The notes under the pieces are model-generated. The model made no database searches. It saw nothing but the letters and a program-made list of their open reading frames with translations, and was not told where the DNA came from. Of a stretch of 37,099 bases of DNA, positions 13,490 to 28,700 are shown piece by piece; within the stretch, counting starts at the first letter, position 1; every line of letters begins with the position of its first letter. The stretch covers positions 1 through 37,099 of the forward strand of contig JAGWHU010000009.1 in NCBI GenBank assembly GCA_028866575.1, in the 5' to 3' direction. The position numbers were made by a program, and so were the translations under genes. This DNA is from Candidatus Micrarchaeota archaeon. GTDB taxonomy: Archaea; Micrarchaeota; Micrarchaeia; Micrarchaeales; Micrarchaeaceae.

Positions 13490-13582
13490 TGGTGGACTCC
13501 GCGGGAATTTCATAGCATTGCTAATTTGAACCCGCAACCTCCTGCATGCCATGCAGGCGCGCTACCGTTACGCCAGGAGCCC
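13490..13582 (-). tRNA. tRNA-Ala (anticodon GGC) with T-loop intron
   Basis: The complete cloverleaf is visible on the minus strand. The acceptor GGGCTCC (13582-13576) pairs with GGAGTCC (13500-13494) including G3-U70, the alanine identity pair. The D stem is GCGT/GCGC, and the anticodon stem CCTGC/GCAGG has loop ATGGCAT, giving anticodon GGC. The variable loop has 5 nt and the T stem is GCGGG/CCCGC. Discriminator A is followed by an encoded CCA. The T loop is interrupted by 18 nt that fit a BHB intron. Removal restores the canonical TTCAAAT loop. It lies 9 nt after the lsm stop codon on the same strand. Confidence 0.93.
13507..13524 (-). other. 18-nt BHB intron in the tRNA-Ala T loop
   Basis: Between the T-stem arms, the minus strand reads as helix TTCA/TGAA (4 bp) flanked by 3-nt bulges AAT and ATT, then an inner stem TAGC/GCTA with loop AAT. 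With the T stem this forms a canonical bulge-4 bp-bulge motif for the archaeal tRNA splicing endonuclease. Cutting after the second base of each bulge removes exactly 13524-13507 and joins TTCAAA to T, so the intron sits between positions 59 and 60. Confidence 0.88.
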
Positions 13583-13591
13583 ACGTTAGCA

Positions 13592-13816
13592 TCAAGCCGG
13601 CGACACAAATATTATGTTCCCGCCGCGCAGCAGGATAGTCCCTATCTTGGCCTTGAGTTCCCCGTCCTCAATCTCCTCTGCGTTCTCTATGACTACATTC
13701 ATGTGTGCGTCGAAAGATACAATCCTTCCTCTGATGTTCGTGTTGCCCTTCAGCCTTATCATTACCTGCTGGCCGAGGACCCTGTTCAGCAAATCAAATG
13801 GTCTTTCCTGTGGCAT
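13592..13816 (-). CDS. Archaeal Sm-like (Lsm) RNA-binding protein
   Basis: A 74-residue LSm protein. The Sm1 motif region (RPFDLLNRVLGQQVMIRLKG, then FDAHMNVVIENAEE) and Sm2 (GTILLRGGNIIFV) are both intact, including the Arg-Gly that lines the RNA pore. It should assemble as a heptameric ring that binds U-rich RNA. The ATG at 13816 has a GGTG ribosome site 7 nt upstream and a TATA box at 13855-13864. The longer frame to 13852 would overlap the expected transcription start. Its 3' end is 9 nt from tRNA-Ala on the same strand, and an AACATAATATTTG TATA-like stretch inside its last codons could serve that tRNA. Confidence 0.93.
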   Translation of the reverse strand: MPQERPFDLLNRVLGQQVMIRLKGNTNIRGRIVSFDAHMNVVIENAEEIEDGELKAKIGTILLRGGNIIFVSPA

Positions 13817-13854
13817 TGAATACACCGACAAAATGATAAGTAATAGGTGCATAC

Positions 13855-28599: not shown

Positions 28600-28700
28600 G
28601 CCGCAGTAACTCAACCCGGGAGAGTGTCCGCCTGAAGAGGCTTTTAAAGTCTTACAAAGCAGAAAGCGGACTGTTGCTGGTTCAAATCCGGCCTGCGGCA
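28600..28700 (+). tRNA. tRNA-Phe (anticodon GAA) with intron after position 37
   Basis: Acceptor GCCGCAG (28600-28606) pairs with CTGCGGC (28693-28699) and discriminator A is at 28700. The D stem is ACTC/GAGT with a GGG-containing loop. The anticodon stem TCCGC/GCGGA encloses CTGAAG, an insert, and A. Joining across the insert gives loop CTGAAGA with anticodon GAA. The T stem GCTGG/CCGGC has loop TTCAAAT. CCA is not encoded, unlike the tRNA-Ala gene of this window. TATA-like TTTTATAACT lies upstream at about 28568-28577. Confidence 0.93.
28638..28664 (+). other. 27-nt intron of tRNA-Phe at the canonical 37/38 site
   Basis: The insert lies between G37 (28637) and A38 (28665). The flanks form a BHB-like motif: CTGA/GCAG as central helix (three Watson-Crick pairs plus A.G), 3-nt bulges AGA and AAA, and an inner stem GGCTT/AAGTC with one G-U pair and loop TTA. 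The central helix is weaker than the ideal. Confidence 0.8.

Follow-up and report, generated by a model that had tools for sequence, protein, structure and literature searches.

A T-loop intron in the tRNA-Ala(GGC) gene of a Micrarchaeota archaeon, probably removed by an ARMAN-type splicing endonuclease

The tRNA-Ala(GGC) locus

The window, that is the whole stretch of 37,099 nucleotides analysed here, hosts a minus-strand tRNA-Ala(GGC) gene that is interrupted within its T loop (Table 1). Read along that strand, with the intron in brackets, the gene is GGGCTCC TG GCGTAACGGTAGCGC G CCTGC AT-GGC-AT GCAGG AGGTT GCGGG TTCAAA[TTAGCAATGCTATGAAAT]T CCCGC GGAGTCC A CCA. None of the four stems is disrupted; in those of the acceptor, anticodon and T arms every position is paired, and the single G-U among them is G3:U70, the pair that confers alanine identity. 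The T loop has 25 nucleotides in place of the normal 7, and the interruption lies at bond 59/60, a position other than the canonical 37/38.

The enlarged loop can be folded together with the T stem into a bulge-helix-bulge (BHB). The TTCA of the exon and the TGAA of the intron are paired in four of four positions, in a fixed register to the predicted splice sites. The bulges, AAT and ATT, are of 3 nt each, and the inner helix is TAGC/GCTA. In the precursor that we propose, the T stem would thus serve as the outer helix, exon bases 54-57 would form the 4-bp central helix with the intron, and the inner helix would cap the structure. When the 18 nt are excised in silico the T loop becomes TTCAAAT, and the T arm then equals that of intronless relatives.

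The neighbouring gene encodes an LSm (Sm-like) protein. It ends 9 nt before the tRNA gene on the same strand, and the end of an LSm-like reading frame likewise lies 5′ of tRNA-Ala(GGC) in the relatives G001 and G076. The LSm gene and the tRNA are likely to be co-transcribed.

Table 1. Positions of the interrupted tRNA gene, its parts and its neighbour in the window, and of the shared intron hairpin elsewhere (contig:position for this genome, locus numbers for relatives).
Feature	Position	Strand	Basis
tRNA-Ala(GGC) gene, including the 18-nt T-loop intron and the encoded CCA (13490-13492)	13490..13582	-	Sequence; ARAGORN on the spliced form; sole copy found
Intron, 18 nt, TTAGCAATGCTATGAAAT, bond 59/60	13507..13524	-	BHB register; 52 empty-site relatives; covariation
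Exon T-loop positions 54-59, TTCAAA; its TTCA provides the 5′ half of the BHB central helix	13525..13530	-	Sequence; order-wide covariation with the intron
Exon T-loop position 60 (T)	13506..13506	-	Sequence; intronless relatives have TTCAAAT or TTCGAAT
T stem 5′ strand GCGGG, the BHB outer helix	13531..13535	-	Sequence
T stem 3′ strand CCCGC	13501..13505	-	Sequence
Anticodon GGC	13548..13550	-	Sequence
LSm (Sm-like) protein gene, upstream of tRNA-Ala(GGC)	13592..13852	-	PF01423, E=3.6e-21
Hairpin matches in this genome	C2:51484-51509, C2:84397-84423, C4:67417-67446, C21:1006-1033		
Hairpin matches in relatives	L305, L308, L315-L344		

Detection and use of the gene

Standard tools overlook this gene. 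ARAGORN reports no tRNA in the whole window at default thresholds, and the Rfam tRNA model at its default threshold misses tRNA-Ala(GGC), which scores 21.4 bits where the cut-off is 29. Just one tRNA in the window, tRNA-Phe(GAA) at 28600-28700 on the plus strand, exceeds that value; it carries an insert of ~30 nt in the anticodon loop. With the 18 nt removed, ARAGORN reports tRNA-Ala(ggc) with a score of 119. Among random 18-nt inserts, a central helix in register arises with p ~0.014, and central and inner 4-bp helices in register together with p ~2.6e-4. The minimum-energy structure from RNAfold forms the T stem and the inner helix and leaves TTCA/TGAA open; the BHB call therefore rests on register and covariation rather than on computed stability.

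The genome to which the window belongs is a draft of 1.13 Mb in 53 contigs, 97.5% complete. Its tRNA set was taken as the matches to RF00005, and may be incomplete. A second, intact tRNA-Ala(GGC) gene, which the sequence-only reading had named as evidence against itself, was sought among these hits and not found; there is a small chance that one sits in an assembly gap. In the larger ORFs of the window, GCT and GCC make up 184 of the 621 alanine codons (30%). As this is the sole source of the GGC anticodon that we found, and these two codons are so frequent, the gene is very probably used by the cell.

Comparison across the order

The window's tRNA was searched against 164 genomes of the same order, 153 of which matched, and the tRNA-Ala(GGC) region was examined in 130. 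The gene is uninterrupted, with a T loop of 7 nt, in 52 of these; the remaining 78 carry 13-48 nt exactly at 59/60. The 52 genes without an intron serve as natural empty sites and define where the splice junctions lie.

The pairing expected of a BHB is found across these relatives. In 63 of the 75 distinct interrupted loops, four of four positions are paired at the BHB register, compared with 0-3 when the register is slid by 1-3 bases, a test that ignores phylogeny. Exon base 57 also changes in concert with its intron partner (A-T 52, G-C 12, G-T 3, A-C 0; Fisher 8e-11, again with phylogeny ignored). Inner helices of 4 bp or more are seen in 34 of 68 cases where 1.7 are expected. The G-C state is found in seven genera, and one genus, g27, contains both states. 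Register, empty sites and covariation together bear out the sequence-only reading, which had proposed a BHB intron at 59/60 with the cuts implied by Table 1 and a restored TTCAAAT loop; the mature T loop is intact and ARAGORN recognises the product.

Occupation of this bond varies within genera. Six genera are mixed, with some genomes that have the 59/60 intron and others that lack it, and the endonuclease tree, although poorly resolved, implies at least 5 intron changes among genomes of known state. In G001, the sister species, the bond is likewise interrupted, by an intron of another sequence. A conservative T-loop-intron pattern is found in 131 of the 164 genomes of the order (a reversed control gives ~30). 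The pattern also extends to other orders of the class, with 200 of 301 genomes of the phylum, where the control matches as well and single hits need checking. In a scan of 84,980 species, the relatives that could be named are Micrarchaeota, among them ARM-1 with its complete genome; some of the bins carry the label Marsarchaeota in their deposits, and one is entered as an uncultured archaeon.

Splicing enzymes and proposed route

Does the cell have the means to remove such an intron? The genome encodes a full-length epsilon2 endonuclease (the ARMAN-type, three-unit form) with 62% identity to the crystallised ARMAN-2 enzyme. ARMAN-2 EndA (PDB 4fz2) is matched over residues 1-390, its full length, with 553 bits (3e-165). 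The protein is a single chain of ~390 aa, arranged alphaN-alpha-betaC, with two PF01974 stretches in one frame. Its residues Y239, H254 and K285 align with the catalytic Y236, H251 and K282 of ARMAN-2, and K164 with K161 of the ARMAN-specific loop (ASL), following the residue numbering of PMC6379350. An epsilon2 endonuclease was found in 154 of the 164 genomes of the order. A homodimeric alpha'2 or a heteromeric enzyme was considered and rejected, as epsilon2 is the only strong PF01974 protein; the other match in the genome (C7:41397) has 13 bits and is below the cut-off. The genome also encodes an RtcB ligase. Broad specificity for non-canonical BHB substrates has been published for the epsilon2 enzyme (PMC4033280, PMC6379350, PMC12397907). 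The sequence-only reading had expected an endonuclease with a broad substrate range and had listed homodimeric, heteromeric and three-unit forms as the types to look for; the three-unit, broad-range type is the one that is present.

We consider it highly probable, on comparative sequence evidence, that this is a working tRNA-Ala(GGC) gene, split at 59/60 by an 18-nt archaeal BHB intron that would be removed by the epsilon2 endonuclease and RtcB. The homodimeric epsilon2 enzyme would cut both bulges and RtcB would join the exons to give TTCAAAT. Since bases 54-57 would be paired with the intron in the precursor, the contact between T loop and D loop (the elbow) and the modification of the T loop should follow splicing.

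Alternative explanations

Could the gene instead be a disrupted, non-functional copy, with GCC and GCU codons read by another tRNA? The failure of standard tRNA finders to report it would fit this. However, no other GGC gene was found in the genome, the stems, identity pair and CCA are all intact, the insert fits the BHB register, and 78 relatives carry inserts at the same bond between exons that have not decayed. We regard a disrupted copy as very improbable. It is also extremely improbable that the tRNA keeps the insert and functions with its T loop enlarged. While the insert does fold as a stable hairpin, the T loop of tRNAs is required for the elbow contact and by processing enzymes, the length of the insert varies from 13 to 48 nt between species with the cleavage pairing kept, and a matching endonuclease is encoded in the genome. 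An assembly or sequencing artefact is scarcely conceivable: the genome is a draft, but we found nothing to support an error, and an intron of different sequence occupies the same bond in G001, with others in many independent assemblies, including the complete genome of ARM-1.

A further suggestion concerns function, and would add to the splicing of a BHB intron rather than replace it. The intron could be spliced as proposed and yet be kept as a defence, by breaking the attachment site of integrating elements. This protection idea for tRNA introns is credited to Randau and Soll, as cited in PMC3293823. The integration-like footprint at tRNA-Leu(TAG), where a copy of the ~31-nt tail (L050) lies 3 kb off, is in keeping with such a role, as are the tail fragments of tRNA-like 3′ ends that are present in relatives. 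Presence and absence of the intron within genera would also be compatible with neutral gain and loss, however, and we consider the defence role unlikely.

Other interrupted tRNAs and known systems

About half of the ~45 tRNA genes in this genome are interrupted. By in-silico splicing, at least 8 have T-loop introns at 59/60, namely Lys(CTT), Lys(TTT), Arg(TCG), Arg(CCT), His(GTG), Ala(GGC), Leu(CAA) and Ser(GGA), the last of which (L049) was spliced by eye. Gln(CTG) and Leu(TAA) have D-loop introns, and about a dozen tRNAs have introns in the anticodon loop. T-loop position 55 is normally the site of a pseudouridine. In Lys(CTT) (L040, C1:51124) and His(GTG) (L043, C4:60383) it is a C, and the introns carry the opposing G, which is a further compensating change.

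As judged from these sequences, 59/60 is a recurrent intron site in the order. This is probably because nearly every tRNA supplies the exon half GGTTCRAA, so that an intron end of the form YGAAAN would fit almost any tRNA. The near-constant exon half may also explain why 59/60 serves as the junction of permuted tRNAs elsewhere (PMC3218864).

With comparable inserts at this bond in dozens of relatives, and none in others, the Ala(GGC) intron is by all comparative evidence real and functional, yet it belongs to a known class. Non-canonical tRNA introns have been published for ARMAN archaea (PMC4033280, PMC6379350, PMC12397907). The closest known systems are the non-canonical BHB introns of ARMAN and Micrarchaeota (Fujishima 2011 and Hirata 2012, as cited in PMC4033280 and PMC6379350; PMC12397907), which share with ours the lineage, the enzyme type, the conserved catalytic and ASL residues and a non-canonical BHB position. 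The initial view that the intron is notable in a DPANN-like genome was overstated, given at least 8 T-loop introns in this genome, occupation of the site in 78 of 130 relatives, and an ARMAN enzyme whose broad range is already published. Nor is the intron unusually short, as had been thought; relatives have introns of 13-17 nt at the same site. We saw neither the order-wide pattern of presence and absence nor the covariation at 59/60 in the literature examined, in which Fujishima 2011 figures only through citation.

The non-canonical and transposed introns of the Thermoproteales (Fujishima 2010, as cited in PMC4090602 and PMC4033280) resemble those of this genome in lying at many positions. 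The Thermoproteales belong to a different phylum, however, and a heterotetrameric (alpha-beta)2 endonuclease is reported for most Crenarchaeota (PMC4033280), whereas the enzyme here is epsilon2. In addition, the intron core shared between tRNAs here, described below, also occurs outside tRNA genes in relatives. The permuted tRNAs of Thermofilum pendens and Cyanidioschyzon merolae have their splice junction at the same T-loop bond, 59/60 (PMC3218864); in contrast, the halves of our tRNA-Ala(GGC) are in the normal order with the 18-nt intron between them.

A hairpin shared between introns

Several introns of this genome are alike. The 37/38 introns of Ala(TGC), Gly(TCC) and Thr(GGT) resemble each other, the 37/38 intron of Ala(TGC) resembles the 59/60 intron of Lys(TTT), and the introns of Lys(TTT) and Thr(GGT) resemble that of Ser(GGA) at 59/60; in each of these comparisons 0 of 2000 shuffles reach the score. 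The motif AAGTTTWATCAAAAG occurs 4 times in the genome with at most one mismatch, each time within a tRNA intron; the reversed control gives no match. A three-segment hairpin of ~30 nt, AAACTTYTT-nnnn-AARAAGTTTNATCAARAAG, also has 4 matches in the genome; three are part of 37/38 tRNA introns and the fourth of a 59/60 tRNA intron. The 18-nt Ala(GGC) intron was considered as a member of a shared family and rejected, as it is absent from all of the top-scoring intron pairs. It also lacks the hairpin, which is present in the Ala(GGC) intron of the relative G097.

A wider form of the hairpin pattern is found in 66 of the 164 genomes of the order, and in none of the reversed controls. Of 47 occurrences, 46 show covariation among the three segments of the hairpin (25 T-A-A and 21 C-G-G, with one exception). 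We inspected the contexts in a sample of 30 genomes, with one locus each. About 12 of the 30 are inside tRNA introns. A further 5 come directly after the 3′ end of a tRNA-Ala, 4 after a tail fragment of a tRNA-like 3′ end and 2 after a 23S rRNA; one hairpin from a narrower search follows a 16S rRNA. The contexts at tRNA-like tail fragments would resemble integration sites. Another 4 of the 30 matches, probably fortuitous, fall in pilin-like reading frames (KSFIKNQSAMEYL). The pattern also matches 74 viral stretches; their gap lengths vary, as expected of chance matches in AT-rich DNA, and they were set aside.

For the Thermoproteales, the sharing of intron sequences has been read as intron transposition (PMC4090602, PMC4033280). 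We tentatively suggest, while holding it to be somewhat doubtful, that in this order the hairpin acts as a short mobile element whose targets are tRNA introns and the 3′ termini of tRNAs and rRNAs, and that its insertion remodels or creates tRNA introns.

Implications

Standard annotation of genomes such as this one loses real tRNAs, as Ala(GGC) and several others with T-loop introns score below the cut-off of the Rfam tRNA model or are truncated by it. The comparison also offers a single bond of a single tRNA that is occupied in 78 genomes and empty in 52, with six mixed genera, so that the gain and loss of introns can be studied at one site. Cleavage is directly testable, because a structure in complex with RNA has been solved for an endonuclease from this clade. 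Lastly, the mechanism by which tRNA introns spread has been called unknown (PMC4090602), and the shared hairpin is a concrete candidate for it.

Further observations on the tRNA set

Four minor points arose from the tRNA hits of this genome. No tRNA-Cys was recognised among them; the gene may sit in an assembly gap or carry introns beyond the reach of the search. The tRNA-Ile for AUA (L019, C1:75049-75158) apparently has the anticodon UAU, with a 37/38 intron, where the usual archaeal anticodon is CAU. A degenerate second tRNA-Asp(GTC)-like sequence (L047, C5:61591-61651) has no matching 5′ strand of the acceptor stem, and an intact copy is nearby (C5:62426). Finally, the last ~31 nt of tRNA-Leu(TAG) (L035, C3:48803-48888) are repeated 3 kb away (C3:51905-51985), a duplication of the tail around a segment of ~3 kb that appears integration-like.
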